Shown piece by piece: positions 41,433 through 55,900 of a stretch of DNA of 64,000 nucleotides. The notes beneath the pieces were generated by a model. It did no database searches, was not told the origin of the DNA, and saw nothing but the letters and a program-made list of their open reading frames with translations. Both the position numbers and the translations under genes were made by a program. How positions within the stretch are numbered: the first letter of the stretch is position 1; the number at the start of each line of letters is the position of its first letter. The stretch covers positions 762,883 through 826,882 of the forward strand of contig NZ_CADFDK010000003.1 in NCBI RefSeq assembly GCF_902832885.1, read 5' to 3'. This stretch comes from Burkholderia seminalis DSM 23518. GTDB lineage: Bacteria; Pseudomonadota; Gammaproteobacteria; Burkholderiales; Burkholderiaceae.

Positions 41433-41547
41433 CCATCGCGTCGACCAGCCTGTCCACTTGCGTCATCGACGTCATGGACCAGTGCGCGACACGCATCCCA
41501 TAAACGGTCACCTGGCGGCGCATGTTGTCCGCCGTCCATGACCGCGG

Positions 41548-50413: not shown

Positions 50414-51109
50414 ATGGCTTTCAAGATCGCCGTCAGTAATCAAAAAGGTGGAACTGGGAAGACAACCATCTCCGTCAACATCGCGGCCGCGTTCGAGGCC
50501 GGCGGCAACAAAGTCGCGTTGATCGATGCCGACCCTCAAGGCACATCTGTCCGCTGGGTCACGAGTGGCGAGAACACCCTGCCGATGACGGTCCTTTCGC
50601 TGGCGCCCGCCGGCCGCGGCATTGGTGGCGAGATCAAGAAGCAGGATGCGAACTTCGACGTGATCGTCGTCGACTGTCCCGGCAACCTCGAAGATCCGCG
50701 CATCGCATCCGTCCTTGAAGTCGCCGACTTTTGCCTGGTGCCGCTGTCGCCGTCGCCGGCCGACCTGTACAGCACCGTCGCGATGATCCGTATGATCGAA
50801 TCGATGCGCGCCGTTCGAAACCCTAATCTTTCTTCCGCATTAATGCTGAATAGCGTCAATGGAAAAACTAAAATGCGTGAAGAAATTTTAAAAATTCTAA
50901 GGGCTGAAGAAATAGGGGAGCATCTGCTCGACAGCCAGATCGCGCAACGCGAGGTCTATCGTCAGACATTCGCGCTCGGCACCACGATCCACCACCACAA
51001 TCGATACCTGAAGGGCCTGAAAGAGGCCCGCGCGGAAATCGAAAAGCTGGTCACGGAAATGGCCCAATACATCGCGTCGACGCGCGCTACCGGAGCCGCC
51101 CATGGCTAA
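50414..51109 (+). CDS. parA: ParA-family partition ATPase (short form)
   Basis: 231 residues. Deviant Walker A KGGTGKTT (11-18) with the signature lysine, A' motif LIDADPQGT, Walker B VIVVDCP (83-89). It lacks the ~100-residue N-terminal HTH of plasmid-P1-type ParA. An AGGAGG-like ribosome site precedes the ATG. It overlaps parB by 8 bp. ATP-dependent nucleoid binding moves ParB-parS complexes. Odd: codons in about 50813-50920 are A/T-rich (39 G+C of 108 by my count), unlike the rest of the gene. Confidence 0.95.
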   Translation: MAFKIAVSNQKGGTGKTTISVNIAAAFEAGGNKVALIDADPQGTSVRWVTSGENTLPMTVLSLAPAGRGIGGEIKKQDANFDVIVVDCPGNLEDPRIASVLEVADFCLVPLSPSPADLYSTVAMIRMIESMRAVRNPNLSSALMLNSVNGKTKMREEILKILRAEEIGEHLLDSQIAQREVYRQTFALGTTIHHHNRYLKGLKEARAEIEKLVTEMAQYIASTRATGAAHG

Positions 51110-52133
51110 GGACACTTCGAAAGACAAGAAACCCACCGGCAACCTGCACCTCGCTGCCGGCCTGTTGCGCGGACTCGCGCAGGAAAATGCGGCCCTCGAA
51201 ACGCGGCTGCCCGAACCCGCGGCCGTTACAAATGTTGCCGCCGAGGCGACGCCTGCTGGCACGCCCCCCGCAGTCACGCCCGCCGGGACGCCGGATCTTG
51301 GCGCACCTCAGAAGGTGCTGGTCAAGGACTGCATCCCGAATCCGTTCAACCCGCGCGTGTTCTACTCGGAGTCGAGCCTGCACGAACTCGCGCTGACGTT
51401 GAAACGGGAAGGGCAGATCGAGCCGATCAAGGTCACGCGGCTTCCCGAGTTTCCCGGCAAGCTCGTCGTGATCGACGGGCAACGCCGGCTGCGGGCGACG
51501 AGCATCAACGGCGACGAGACCATCAACGCCACGTTCCGCACGGACCACACGCCCGAGCAGCTCTATACGATCGCGTACCGCGCGAACCACGACCACGAAC
51601 GCCAGACGATCTTCGACGACGCGGTTGCGTGGAAGCGCCTCCTCGACGAAAAGGTCTTTTCCGACCAGAACACGCTGGCAGAAAAGATCGGCAAGGACAA
51701 GGCATCGATCAGCAAGACGCTGTCGCTCAACGCACTGCCCAACACGCTGCTGGAGCGGATGGCCGGCGCGAACGACGTGGTCGGCCTGCAGGCGGCGTAC
51801 TTTCTGAAGCTGATTTTCGAACGCCTGGGCGAACCGACGGCCGACCGGCTGCTGACGGCCGTGATCGACCGGAAAAAATCGGTCCGCGATCTCGAGAATT
51901 TCCTGCGTGCGCAGAGCGACGGCAACAAGAAAACGGGCCGCACGCGCTACAGCGTCCGTCACGACTTCGCGCTCGAATCGCGCGCGATCGGCCAGTTGAA
52001 GACCTACCCGGACGGCCGTCTCGATCTGCAGCTCAAGGGCGTCGACGCGTCCCATCAGGAGGCGCTTGCCGACCAGCTCAAGATCGTCATCGATGCTTAC
52101 GTCGCCGAGCTGGCGACGGCCGCGCAAAAGTAA
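51102..52133 (+). CDS. parB: ParB centromere-binding protein
   Basis: 343 residues. A low-complexity N-terminus (about 1-70) precedes the ParB N-domain (DCIPNPFNPRVFYSESSLHELALTLKREG, DGQRRLRAT CTP-binding region about 125-132) and an HTH (TLAEKIGKDKASISKTLSL). Expected to load on the parS sites upstream of parA and slide as a CTP-dependent clamp. Translation is coupled to parA by the overlap. Confidence 0.95.
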   Translation: MAKDTSKDKKPTGNLHLAAGLLRGLAQENAALETRLPEPAAVTNVAAEATPAGTPPAVTPAGTPDLGAPQKVLVKDCIPNPFNPRVFYSESSLHELALTLKREGQIEPIKVTRLPEFPGKLVVIDGQRRLRATSINGDETINATFRTDHTPEQLYTIAYRANHDHERQTIFDDAVAWKRLLDEKVFSDQNTLAEKIGKDKASISKTLSLNALPNTLLERMAGANDVVGLQAAYFLKLIFERLGEPTADRLLTAVIDRKKSVRDLENFLRAQSDGNKKTGRTRYSVRHDFALESRAIGQLKTYPDGRLDLQLKGVDASHQEALADQLKIVIDAYVAELATAAQK

Positions 52134-52233: not shown

Positions 52234-53550
52234 TCAGTTGCCTGCGAGACTGCTTTTGAGCAGGAATTCCAGCAGGTCGTCCGAGGTCGGTTCGCCCCAG
52301 GTATCCAGTGCCAGCCATCGGAAGAAGCTGGTCTGCGCGAGCTTGCTCGCCTTCTTCTTCGGCGACAGCGTCAGGTCCTTCGAGCCCACTACCGTCTCGT
52401 TGTAGCGTTCGAGCAGCTTGGTCTGGTCATCGATCTCCAGTTCGCGGAAATACGCGCCAGCTTCCTCGACCTTCGCCGCCAGATACTTGTCGCGAATCTG
52501 CTCCTGCTTGCTCTGCGCGGATTCCTTCGCCGGTGCGACCGCCTCGGTTCCCTGCCCGTCAGCCAGCGTATAGCCGTGCGTCAGCGCCTTGCGGAAATAC
52601 GCGGCCACGTTGTCGACCGGCGCCGCATTCTTCTTCGTTGTCCGATTGAGCGTATAGGCGATCGCCGCCTTGATGCGCTGCACGCCGTATTGCGTGATCA
52701 GCCGGCGCGCTTCCGAACGCGGAATGCCGAACTTGGCGACTTCCTCGACCAGCGCTTCGTTCTTGACGTCGCCGTCTTCCACCGTATCGGCGCTCTGCTT
52801 GCGCGTCACCTTGAACTGCACGGCTTCCACGCTGCGGCCGGACTTGTGTTCGATCAGCTCGAGCGTGTGATCCGATACTTCGTTCACCTCCTGAATGCAC
52901 GGCACCAGGACCTTGCTCTTGAACAGCTTGTATTCCTTGTACGACTGCGACGCCTTGTCCTGGCCGAGAATGAGGTCACGGAATTTCGGCAGCGGGATCT
53001 TTGCGGTGATGCCGATCCCTTCGTAGCGCACCGTGTTTTCCCACAGGGCGAGCGAGTGCGACCGCCGGAATTCGCGAGCGATCCGCATATCGATCAGCGC
53101 GTAGATTTCGGGGTTCAGCAGTTCGCTGCGAATCTGGTCCGAGAAACTGTACTTCAGCACCGATTGCTCGAGCTCCGCGCCGGCGAGCAGGCCCGACGCT
53201 TTCCAGACCGTCGAACGGTCCGCGGCCAGGTAGTCCCAGTTGACGACGGTACTGATCAGCGAGTTGACCGTGTCCTTCACGTACTTCGTGTTGTTGCTGT
53301 TCAGCCCGCTTTCGTGCGAAAGCGACGCGATCGAGATCGAGAAGCTGGTCCGGCCAGGCTCGAACGCCTCCTGCCGAAGTGCGTTCTTGATCAGCGAGCT
53401 GAACATCTTGCGCTGCTGCAGCCCGATCTTTCCGGACTTGGGCGCGATATGGATCGCCTGGACCGCCTTGCGCAGCAAGTCGGGAGGCTCGGGTGTCTGA
53501 AACAGTGAAACCTGTTTGTCTGAGCCTTTGCTTGCGGGCTTGCGCGGCAT
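52234..53550 (-). CDS. repA: RepA replication initiator (Rep_3-like, iteron binding)
   Basis: 438 residues. Central part resembles winged-helix initiators (IGLQQRKMFSSLIKNALRQ, LALWENTVRYEGIGITAKIPLPKFRDLILG, RSVEAVQFKVTRK). The C-terminal third is charged with RWLALDTWGEPTSDDLLEFLL at the end. It is transcribed from the iteron region toward parB. Iterons beginning 150 bp upstream are its expected targets. The typical secondary-replicon initiator of Burkholderia is of this kind. Confidence 0.9.
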   Translation of the reverse strand: MPRKPASKGSDKQVSLFQTPEPPDLLRKAVQAIHIAPKSGKIGLQQRKMFSSLIKNALRQEAFEPGRTSFSISIASLSHESGLNSNNTKYVKDTVNSLISTVVNWDYLAADRSTVWKASGLLAGAELEQSVLKYSFSDQIRSELLNPEIYALIDMRIAREFRRSHSLALWENTVRYEGIGITAKIPLPKFRDLILGQDKASQSYKEYKLFKSKVLVPCIQEVNEVSDHTLELIEHKSGRSVEAVQFKVTRKQSADTVEDGDVKNEALVEEVAKFGIPRSEARRLITQYGVQRIKAAIAYTLNRTTKKNAAPVDNVAAYFRKALTHGYTLADGQGTEAVAPAKESAQSKQEQIRDKYLAAKVEEAGAYFRELEIDDQTKLLERYNETVVGSKDLTLSPKKKASKLAQTSFFRWLALDTWGEPTSDDLLEFLLKSSLAGN

Positions 53551-53584
53551 CGTGATGTCCGGATAAGGTGACCTTGTTGATAGC

Positions 53585-53660
53585 AGACTTTATACCTTTT
53601 CTCGTCCGGGAGCAACGTCATTGCTCCAGTATCACTTTCACTATCACGTCTAACTATCAG
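53585..53660 (-). promoter_or_regulatory. repA promoter/operator region
   Basis: Minus-strand TATAAAG (around 53590) is a plausible -10. Upstream of it GGAGCAA-CGTCA-TTGCTCC (53609-53627) is a perfect 7-bp dyad, followed by three phased copies of TATCAC/G at 53630, 53642 and 53655. The layout suggests repA autoregulation or a host-factor site. Inference from position. Confidence 0.5.
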
Positions 53661-53700
53661 ATAAAAAAGGGGAAATTTCGATTATTTGGTTTGCAAGGAG
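53661..53700. other. A/T-rich segment between operator and iterons
   Basis: About 40 bp dominated by A and T (ATAAAAAAGGGGAAATTTCG onwards), next to the first iteron. Candidate DNA-unwinding element of the origin. Confidence 0.4.
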
Positions 53701-54505
53701 CCCCATATCCATCTACCTTTGGAAAAAAATGCTTCCCAAAAGCCGCTACCTTTCGTGTCCGGACACCGAAACCCGGCACGAGATTTGCCCCCACGAAGGT
53801 AACCATCCATGGGAGACAATCGACCGCAATCGAGATCGTCGGCGGAATTCGTGGTGCCCTGCAGCACAGCACGTTTTTCCTCCCATAACTTGCTACCTTC
53901 ATCGATTCCCACAGGAGGGTACCTTTCAGCGTCATCGATTTCATTGTTTTCGATCCCGCCCGCGGAAATCGCTCCCATAAATGGCAACCTGCCATTTCCC
54001 CCATAGCAGGTAACCTTTATGCTCCAACGATCCAGTCCATGGGAAAGGTTTCCGGAACACCACGGTGAATTTCAGCCAATCGGCCCGAGCAGGTTCCCAT
54101 AAAAAGGTACCTTCGAGATACCCCATAACTGGCTACCCAAAGAAAATCGCTGTGCCTTGAGGGACTCATGGATCGAGAAAAACGCCCCATAAAAGGCTAC
54201 CCTCAAGCATCCCCATAGACGACTACCCAGCGCGATTTACGACCGATTTCCCATAACCGGGTACGCTCGCCCCATATCCACAACCCCCAAACCCCACAAC
54301 TCGGTACCCCATTCCCCAAATCCACAGACCTGAAACCCCAGACCCTTCCACCTGTGCTCCCATAAATGGGTACCGAACACCGCTCAAACCCTTGTGGCAC
54401 AAGGCTGTGAGCCGTCTAAAAGTAGTTAAAGAAGTAAACGTGGTTTACAAAAGATGTAAACACACGTGTGCTCCCACAGAAAGACGAACCCCATAAACCG
54501 CTACC
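53701..54505 (+). repeat. Iteron array of the replication origin (about 16 direct copies)
   Basis: Sixteen imperfect copies of CCCATAAnnGGnTACC in one orientation, beginning at 53702, 53735, 53789, 53882, 53908, 53974, 54000, 54096, 54122, 54186, 54212, 54250, 54271, 54293, 54359 and 54490. The best match the consensus fully (54122, 54186, 54359); 53789 and 54271 are the weakest. Four successive doublets have an exact 26-bp start-to-start offset (53882/53908, 53974/54000, 54096/54122, 54186/54212). Presumed RepA binding sites and origin core. The copy at 54271 contains a DnaA-box-like TATCCACA. Confidence 0.88.
54434..54470. repeat. GTAAAC/GTTTAC dyad and CACACGTGTG palindrome
   Basis: GTAAAC-GTG-GTTTAC (54434-54448), another GTAAAC at 54456, and the perfect palindrome CACACGTGTG (54461-54470), in an A/T-rich stretch between the last two forward iterons. 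Possible second unwinding or protein-binding element of the origin. Confidence 0.45.
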
Positions 54506-54648
54506 TACGGTAGCCGTCTGTGGTACGGAAAACGCGCGGAACGACTGATCCAGCCGTGCAGAACCTGAGATTGGGCCCCTGTCCTGCGAGGGTTTCAGGC
54601 CCGACAAGGCTTTCCGGAGGGGTGAGTGCCTACTCACAAACGCCGAAA

Positions 54649-54716
54649 CGTAGAAACCTATGGGAGGAAACCACGAGGAAATCCCCCGATTCGGCGTACA
54701 GGTTCCCGTTTATGGG
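54649..54716 (-). repeat. Inverted iteron copies
   Basis: Read on the minus strand, 54701-54716 is CCCATAAACGGGAACC (good match) and 54649-54664 is a poor match (CCCATAGGTTTCTACG). They face the direct array and could pair with it through RepA. Confidence 0.6.
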
Positions 54717-55900
54717 ATCGACGAATCCACTTCCTGATCACCCGCGCGCTTGCGTTTGGCCGACAGAGCAGGTCCACGGCCACCGCGGTGGCCGTCTTCG
54801 GAATCGCCGGCAGCAGTTCGAAATCATCGTGGATTGCAGGCGAGTGGATTTTTGTCCTCGTGATCCCGCGTCCGTGGACAACTTTTTACCGGTCGCCAAC
54901 CGGCATGTTTCGAACAAATTCAGCCTGTGGACTGTGCGCAGAGGCAATCGTCCCGGACTGCGTGTCCACGCGGCGGCCTCCCGATTTTCTACCTTTGGAC
55001 CAACCGAGCCGTCGCACTGTGGCTCTGGCAAGCCGCCAAAAGCCGCACGACCGACCGCGAGCGATCGTCATGGCGAACTACCTTCTGCACAGGTCGCCGG
55101 CTCCAGGACCGATCCGAAGATCGTTCCGATCCGACGTGAAAATCCGGTCTATGACGAAGCTCACCGTCGCCAAATCGCAAGTGGCTCCCGGAAAGGCTCT
55201 CACCTTTCGGTACCGCACTGGGTTCGGCAAACCGTGTCGATCGCGATACCGCTCAACGGGCAGGCCACCTGAGCGATCAAATAAAAAGTCTGTGGCAAAG
55301 CTCACGGTGTGATGTATCCGCAAGCACAGTCACTTGCGCTTTCTCGACGCATGCGTGAAGTGACGCCGATCGACGTCTTCACCACACAGTGTTCGGCTTT
55401 TCGTCATACGTACCCGTCAATGACGACCTTCACCTCGACAGGTCACCCAAGCCACAGGTGACTGCCAACATCACGGCGCGGCGACTCGACGCGATCGTCC
55501 TGATCGCCGGAGGAACCGAATCGTGACCGTTTATGGGAGGAACCGTCGCTCGAGCCGCGTCGAATGGCAACGTGACGCACAGATCGACTGCTGCTGCGGG
55601 GATCATGGATGAGCATGTCGACATCACCACCTGTGAAACAGCGGCCTATCGTGCGTGCCCAATCCGTCGCCGTTCCCGAACCGGGCGATAAGCGTCGCGG
55701 TCTCTAGCACATGACGCCTGTGCGGAGCCCCATCTTCTCCCATACATGTATCCCGATTCCGTCATCACGTTCACGCCACATTTTTCGCGACACGGTTATG
55801 ATGCACAGGTCCTGATCGCGACATGACAACCGATCAGGACAGGGGCGGTATCTCGATGGTTGTTCAATCCGTGATAGTCATCAAAAAAGAGAGTTCAGCG
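54717..55900. other. Origin-flanking region without a supported gene
   Basis: 1.2 kb of non-coding sequence. Frames crossing it have irregular third-position composition and no family resemblance. One further inverted iteron lies at 55522. Some short imperfect repeats (AAGCTCACCGT near 55157 and AAGCTCACGGT near 55300) occur. The right end holds the promoter of the DUF4148 gene. Confidence 0.5.
55522..55537 (-). repeat. Distant inverted iteron copy
   Basis: Minus strand CCCATAAACGGTCACG, matching the iteron consensus at most positions, 1 kb beyond the array. It could be a remote RepA site; chance is possible given one isolated copy. Confidence 0.4.

Follow-up and report, generated by a model that had tools for sequence, protein, structure and literature searches.

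The rep-par region and its iteron doublets

The window, by which we mean the whole stretch of 64,000 nucleotides analysed here, comes from the genome of Burkholderia seminalis DSM 23518, an assembly of 7,974,784 bases (7.97 Mb) in 55 contigs. It contains a gene for a parA-like partition ATPase at 50414-51109 (plus strand; Pfam AAA_31/CbiA), a gene for a parB-like partition protein at 51102-52133 (plus strand; Pfam ParB_N and HTH_ParB) and, on the minus strand at 52234-53550, repA, which encodes a 438-residue replication initiator of the Rep_3 family. Its two Rep_3 winged-helix domains are recognised as Rep3_N (residues 39-172; Pfam, 1.2e-10) and Rep3_C (residues 202-247; 3.4e-10). RepE, the initiator of plasmid F, is also a member of the Rep_3 family; in a single-sequence search RepE (1rep) matched the RepA of the window weakly (E 0.079), and seven chance-level matches, all to one unrelated protein, ranked above it (best E 0.0094). 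Relatives of RepA were found at 33 GTDB loci, and the nearest relatives of the window that carry a name are loci of the Burkholderia cepacia complex, two of them on chromosome 3 (B. anthina and Burkholderia sp. MS389). The GC skew switches sign between 54 and 56 kb, which matches the expectation for an origin. The origin in the window is an iteron-type origin of the third replicon of the B. cepacia complex, located in its rep-par region. We also observed an adenylosuccinate synthetase gene (Pfam PF00709; 57306-58712, plus strand) close to the origin on this third replicon.

Upstream of repA, eight plus-strand iterons are arranged as four direct pairs, which together form the doublet domain (53882-54227). 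The iterons start at 53882 and 53908 in doublet D1 (53882-53923), at 53974 and 54000 in D2 (53974-54015), at 54096 and 54122 in D3 (54096-54137) and at 54186 and 54212 in D4 (54186-54227); each pair was recovered by iteron search, by comparison with close relatives and by a pattern search of the genome. All eight 16-mers of the original prediction are present where it had placed them, with within-pair offsets of 26, 26, 26 and 26 bp, and its pair-to-pair distances of 92, 122 and 90 bp were reproduced. At 10.5 bp per turn, 26 bp corresponds to 2.48 turns, or 171 degrees. The spacers of D1 to D4 read TTCATCGATT, TGCCATTTCC, TTCGAGATAC and CTCAAGCATC. They had been described as 10 bp of unrelated sequence; the letters do differ, but variation is lower in the opening one or two bases and in the final base than elsewhere. 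These less variable edges fit a longer iteron (tCCCATAAnnnnnTACCtt) and a free spacer of about 7 bp.

As a model of chance, 15 plus-strand sites were placed at random with at least 16 bp between starts. Under this model the window origin is expected to show at least four gaps of 26 bp with P = 7.5e-5, and at least four equal gaps of any value with P = 0.0022. For a single origin the case against chance is good, not overwhelming; it is the comparison with other origins that makes the doublets secure. When up to two mismatches were allowed, the doublet pattern matched five places in its own genome, four exactly and all at the origin, and one with two mismatches elsewhere, while a reversed control pattern matched two. 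A chance origin of the doublets is ruled out by the placement statistics, this pattern search and the lag scan described below. The idea of a 26-bp doublet elsewhere in the genome acting as a crtS-like element was set aside, given that the one match with two mismatches is the only candidate.

Offset and spacer in related origins

The closest comparison covers 35 origins: that of the window, 32 of the 33 GTDB loci, and two further loci of the same genus, L151 and L152. A path search that admitted within-pair offsets of 20-36 bp and pair-to-pair steps of 40-140 bp traced 140 offsets in these origins, and 138 of them are 26 bp. The first three pairs keep 26 bp in 35 of 35 origins and the fourth in 33 of 35; the two exceptions are L024, with 27 bp, and L025, in which the array is rearranged and the path shifted, so that its labels are not orthologous. 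Pair-to-pair steps range over 55-95, 66-99 and 64-81 bp, with extremes that stem partly from L025 and L151. Both of these origins have an extra site at a 26-bp spacing ahead of the array, and the first pair of L025 lacks one called member. Among 31 distinct origins (L024, L025 and L151 excluded, one duplicate removed), the mean pairwise difference is 0.038 in the iteron core, 0.277 in the iteron middle, 0.513 in the spacers and 0.49-0.54 between pairs. The spacers of close origins drift in sequence, not in length. The alignment therefore bears out the prediction that related origins would keep the 26-bp offset while their spacers diverge, and the freely varying offsets that were looked for in homologous origins (35 close and 53 related) were not found.

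We also gathered origins from plasmids and genomes down to 34-43% RepA identity, and assigned them to groups A to J from RepA identity and iteron consensus. Unaided repeat finding (73 origins) and a motif-free lag scan (58 non-redundant origins) both show 26 bp and 21/22 bp. Over lags 14-74 in the 53 origins with a clade-type RepA, lag 26 ranks first with 108 matches, followed by 79 at 22 and 54 at 21, 72 and 51 at 43 and 44, 61, 49 and 44 at 64-66, and 35 at 38; all remaining lags have 4-26. Counting with group matrices, which were seeded with the common CC...ACC skeleton and omit group J (one origin, L146), we found at least one pair of 24-27 bp in 45 of the 53 non-redundant related origins.

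The spacing is tightest near the window. Groups A, B and C, which comprise 19 close Burkholderia and Paraburkholderia-like origins, have 74 gaps of 26 bp, one of 25 and one of 27 (the fifth gap of L030 is a minus-strand 27, and two of the four gaps of L025 are chained); at least four pairs are present in 18 of the 19 origins, and L099 has three. The 14 Cupriavidus-like origins of group D have four offsets of 24 bp, 16 of 25, 13 of 26 and two of 27. Three related members of that group (L123, L126 and L127) repeat the order 24, 25, 26, 25, so an offset can be passed on together with its place in the series. The Cupriavidus-like offsets of 24 and 25 bp correspond, at 10.5 bp per turn, to about 103 and 137 degrees and are not strictly opposite-face. 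Nine offsets of 26 bp and two of 27 were called in the 14 origins of groups E, F and H, and nine of 26 bp in the six origins of group G. The claim of exactly 26 bp thus stands for the close origins and weakens with distance. Two calls deserve a qualification: the only pair of L142 sits in the array region and is doubtful, and L116 has a pair of 27 bp with a second at 29. The eight origins without a 24-27 bp pair (L140 in D; L040, L133, L137, L138, L139 and L141 in E, F and H; L044 in G) indicate that the element is dispensable in some relatives. One of them, the same-genus group F origin L137, has eight consecutive steps of 39-40 bp past its 22-bp array, a regular register like the 40-41 bp steps of P1 incA. 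In 11 distant Rep_3 loci (L053-L063; 26-34% identity, flanks of at most 1.5 kb), lag 26 was never the sole leader and had at most two matches among the six top lags of a flank, with its maxima in L054, where it tied with others, and L055.

The iteron consensus varies by group (CCCATAACCGGnTACC, CCCAAAnnnGTTCACC, ACCATAGACGTTCACC and CCCATAAATGGTGACC in the group matrices), and the offset persists down to RepA identities of 37-43%, so the spacing has outlived changes in the recognition sequence. The RepA tree, made by a quick method from 54 rows, unites groups A to H as a single clade (47 rows, support 100) with the chromosome-2 type outside; groups of at least two rows each lie on one side of a branch (C with support 36), except for two outgroup rows, and seven of the 53 origins (L014, L022, L023, L032, L033, L140 and L142) have no row in it and were assigned from RepA identity only. 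Doublets occur in the G branch and in A to E and are thinned in F and H, which are sisters in a branch that also holds E and in which four of ten origins have one pair and six have none. The simplest reading is that doublets were an ancestral trait of the A-H clade and were partly lost once. The chromosome 2-type origins of Burkholderia resemble the window in having a Rep_3 initiator and many same-strand iterons, with 22-bp steps in three of four origins; they differ in that a 24-27 bp pair occurs in 0 of 4 and in their RepA, which is 33-34% identical and lies outside the clade. Their matrix was seeded separately, and unaided repeat finding recovered a part of the array that it missed. According to the portion of PMC5450999 drawn on here, an independent analysis groups the ParB of c3 with that of B. 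vietnamiensis G4 plasmid 2 (family Bsr3); the RepA of the same plasmid (L037) falls in our group F. A RepA 63-65% identical to that of the window was found in 22 genomes of one related genus among 398 genomes searched. The non-redundant origins of group B (eight examined, from that genus) have the same doublet origin, which makes this replicon type common outside the cepacia complex.

Could the offset be a functionless relic of one doublet duplicated into four? Four similar units do stand in series, and the flanks of different pairs of the same origin have a similarity of 0.320, slightly above the 0.251 computed for spacer letters. The spacers tell otherwise: in groups A-C, letters 3-9 of spacers from the same origin are identical at 0.278 against 0.251 by chance, all 74 of 74 are distinct, and from origin to origin the spacers differ as much as the stretches that separate the pairs. 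A single recent tandem duplication is ruled out, the spacers being unrelated. Against inheritance alone also stand the persistence of the offset at such low RepA identity and the close origins, where pair-to-pair lengths have changed repeatedly and the offset almost never, a weak comparison given that four spacers make up 40 bp and the DNA between pairs about 178 bp. We find this account scarcely credible.

The core origin beside the doublets

Adjoining the doublets is a core origin (54250-54465) that had been overlooked in the original prediction, with repeats every 21/22 bp, a DnaA-box-like site and an AT-rich stretch. Its array (54250-54374, plus strand), recognised from the alignment of relatives and the group matrix, has six iteron or iteron-like repeats, at 54250, 54271, 54293, 54315, 54337 and 54359. 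The steps of 21, 22, 22, 22 and 22 bp are kept in relatives; the repeat at 54337 is weak, and the group matrix calls it in relatives only, not in the window. Regular iterons at about two helical turns are thus present in this origin, with the doublets as a second domain next to them, and the array is a better candidate than the doublets for the initiating iterons. Within its second repeat lies the DnaA-box-like ATATCCACA (54274-54282, plus strand), one mismatch from TTATCCACA, of which the window has five one-mismatch matches against 3.09 expected. The repeats at 54271 and 54315 both contain the DnaA-box-like core ATCCACA. In 18 aligned origins (12 close and six more distant) CCATATCCAC of the first of these is invariant, and the last A of the box is kept in 17. 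The AT-rich stretch (54417-54465, plus strand), a putative DNA unwinding element with repeated TAAA motifs, has an AT fraction of 0.63-0.73 in the 30-bp windows that begin at 54411-54441; the other windows compared have 0.37-0.50.

Past it follow a single iteron at 54490-54505 (plus strand), reached by a step of 131 or 132 bp in nine non-redundant close origins, and a single inverted iteron-like site at 54701-54716 (minus strand). Two more exact CCCATAAACGGTCAC sites off the array, at 41497-41511 (plus strand) and 55523-55537 (minus strand), are possible outlying RepA sites; the first, which overlaps the ends of two listed ORFs, is some 12 kb away from the origin. With up to two mismatches, CCCATAAACGGTCAC has three matches in the window, the third being the 54702 site, against 0.03 expected. 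We also note three imperfect 21-nt direct repeats of the GTCTATGACGAAGCTCACCGT type beyond the origin, at 55147, 55288 and 55416 (spacing 141 and 128 bp), and a palindrome CTTGTGGCACAAG at 54391-54403, between the array and the AT-rich stretch, which occurs in only two of the 18 aligned origins, the window included.

The doublet block lies between repA and the array and points at the array in groups A to D and F, is inverted as a whole in the G origins that show both, and faces the array in E. An autonomous element is indicated, since the offset survives both inversion of the module relative to repA and the facing arrangement of doublets and array; the offset is independent of iteron orientation as it is of iteron sequence. 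The unit under constraint seems to be the doublet and not the string of doublets. Doublet-to-doublet distances do give a Rayleigh P of 3e-8 at 10.5 bp on 82 distances, a value dominated by related origins, but distinct distances give P = 0.19 at 10.5 bp and, at 11.0 bp, P = 0.054; helical phasing between successive doublets is not supported.

In groups A-D and F the block stands between the core origin and repA, which might suggest that the doublets are operators through which repA is autoregulated. We consider this very improbable. The doublets lie some 330-680 bp upstream of the repA start; in the G origins showing both, it is the array that adjoins repA; a scan of 53500-55000 found 0 consensus promoters, with 1.3 expected by chance; and a separate pair of iteron-like sites lies nearer to repA. 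These two sites, at 53702 and 53735 (53702-53750, plus strand; iteron search and the first gap in relatives), are a possible repA operator, and their 33-bp distance recurs as the first gap in 22 of 32 Burkholderia loci, with 34 bp in one and none called in nine.

The step from the second iteron of D4 to the core array is 38 bp in the window and is kept in 34 of the 35 close origins; it is 35-39 bp in A, B, C, much of D and three F origins, and 49-68 bp in G where readable. The fixed step of 35-39 bp suggests a coupling of D4, at least, to the core. It also fits a positive part in the origin, in which RepA at the pairs, D4 above all, would help to bring RepA onto the core array, to stabilise it there or to load the helicase; without the pairs, replication would be poor. 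The constant order of doublets and array in A-D and F, inverted as a block in the G origins that show both, and the 64 bp (three array steps) between the first iteron of D4 and the first array iteron of the window, agree with such a part. In E, however, doublets and array face each other hundreds of bp apart, the step is longer in G, and the ten F and H origins have no pair or one, most of them with a clear 21/22-bp array. We regard a positive role as unlikely, although it is the strongest of the competing explanations.

Models for the doublet domain

On chromosome 3 of B. cenocepacia J2315, c3 iterons with the consensus tCCCATAAacggntACCtnt (S2 Fig legend) and mainly bidirectional replication have been reported [Du et al. 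2016, PMC4948915]. The replicon type is the same, the consensus fits the half-sites described here, and both origins have repA, parAB and an AT-rich region. The difference is that the paper describes typical clusters of 19-21 bp iterons (listed in its S1 Table), and in its passages on iterons, with which we compared, neither pairs nor an offset of 26 bp nor a core array at 21/22 bp is mentioned. Among the open-access PMC matches listed, judged by titles and the starts of abstracts, we found no paper on 26-bp iteron doublets or pair spacing, nor any work on binding, copy number or incompatibility of this origin. The c3 iterons were therefore already known, and the conserved 26-bp spacing of pairs is without mention in the literature searched.

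Better-studied origins show iterons in other registers. In P1 (annotation of AF234172) the steps are 22, 21, 21 and 21 bp in oriR and 31, 30, 31, 31, 31, 40, 41 and 31 bp in incA. P1 resembles the window in having a 21-22 bp core array and, apart from it, a further series of RepA-binding iterons that the annotation labels as incA, the incompatibility determinant; it differs in that the 30-31 and 40-41 bp steps are near whole turns, with no half-turn pairs, and in that incA lies beyond repA, whereas the window doublets lie between repA and the origin. In plasmid F (ori2/incC) two iteron groups flank the initiator gene, but their steps (21, 33, 22 and 22, 33, 91, 83 bp) include no 26-bp pairs, and the short ones are near whole turns. 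The view that the doublets are spaced unlike regular plasmid iterons is upheld by both plasmids. The Vibrio cholerae origin that is served by RctB offers a chromid origin divided into a regular array and a regulatory region (ori2-min and ori2-inc), as described in the portions of PMC6090056 used here. Its inhibitory 39-mers are unlike iterons, whereas both members of the window-type pairs follow the iteron consensus. Base frequencies are nearly equal in the two members of 74 pairs, so that both look like ordinary RepA sites, and a specialised first or second member was not seen.

The original prediction explained the spacing by cooperative RepA binding at each doublet, and as stated this is not supported: two iterons set half a helical turn apart lost Rep cooperativity elsewhere (PMC4980987, which cites Bowers et al. 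2007 for this in the part consulted). By analogy, a cooperative doublet, if real, probably uses another interface. The tightly kept half-turn offset suggests either such an interface or a geometry that keeps doublet sites out of the initiating assembly.

Another explanation is that each doublet is one composite site, occupied by a RepA dimer or by RepA together with a partner bound in the spacer (IHF, ParB or DnaA), which requires 26 bp. A rigid protein-protein unit would be expected to select just such a single tight distance and to leave the spacer sequence free. But a motif for a second protein is not shared by the 74 spacers of groups A-C, where no base exceeds 41% in columns 3-9; offsets of 24-27 bp are tolerated; and Rep_3 dimers are known for inverted half-sites, not for direct ones such as the doublets. 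We judge a composite site of this kind to be rather improbable.

We favour the hypothesis that the doublet domain is a RepA-binding control domain of out-of-phase geometry that works by titration or handcuffing, in analogy to P1 incA, and assign it a probability of roughly 0.5. That the offset varies by no more than one or two bases across many related plasmids, despite wholly changed spacers, suggests a distinct control element, as far as comparison of sequences can tell. The precedents are P1 incA, set in a register other than that of oriR, and the two-domain ori2-min/ori2-inc origin of Vibrio, as presented in the sections of PMC6090056 cited above. Of the features of an incA-type locus, the origin has further copies of its iteron away from the core array, as four doublets recognised by the same group matrix as the array, and lacks a spacing near whole turns. 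Since the known control loci are near whole turns (30-31 and 40-41 bp in P1, 22 and 33 bp in F), the analogy to incA fails on the spacing itself.

According to this control hypothesis, the origin would consist of two RepA-binding domains that share one iteron sequence in different helical registers. In the core (54250-54465), iterons every 21/22 bp would present one face of the helix, and RepA together with DnaA would open the DNA there. In the doublet domain (53882-54227) the two members of a pair, about 2.5 turns apart, would lie on opposite faces in solution; each doublet would bind two RepA molecules in a complex unable to extend into the same-face assembly of the core. The domain would then titrate RepA, or pair (handcuff) with the core array as incA does with P1 oriR, or both. 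The two domains, the conserved offset, its independence of iteron sequence and orientation, and the diverged spacers are observed; RepA binding to the doublets, the opposite-face geometry, the pairing and the negative sign of the effect are what we infer. More tentatively still, with the odds somewhat against it, we propose a phase code, in which the same iteron would mean 'initiate' when in phase (21/22 bp) and 'hold or sequester' as a half-turn doublet (26 bp). RepA would do so by means of another RepA-RepA interface, one that a clade of Burkholderiales chromids and plasmids would have maintained as the sequences of iterons and spacers changed.

The ability of an iteron initiator to distinguish initiating sites from control sites of the same sequence is usually ascribed to affinity, to methylation or to distinct site types (see also PMC6090056). 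In the origins described above, geometry alone may carry the difference, kept through large changes in RepA and DNA. The combination of 26-bp doublets with a 21/22-bp array is a sequence signature by which this replicon lineage can be recognised in assemblies, and the natural variants of 24, 25 and 26 bp are material for structural work. The origin also offers a testable case for how the copy number of a chromid is held low.
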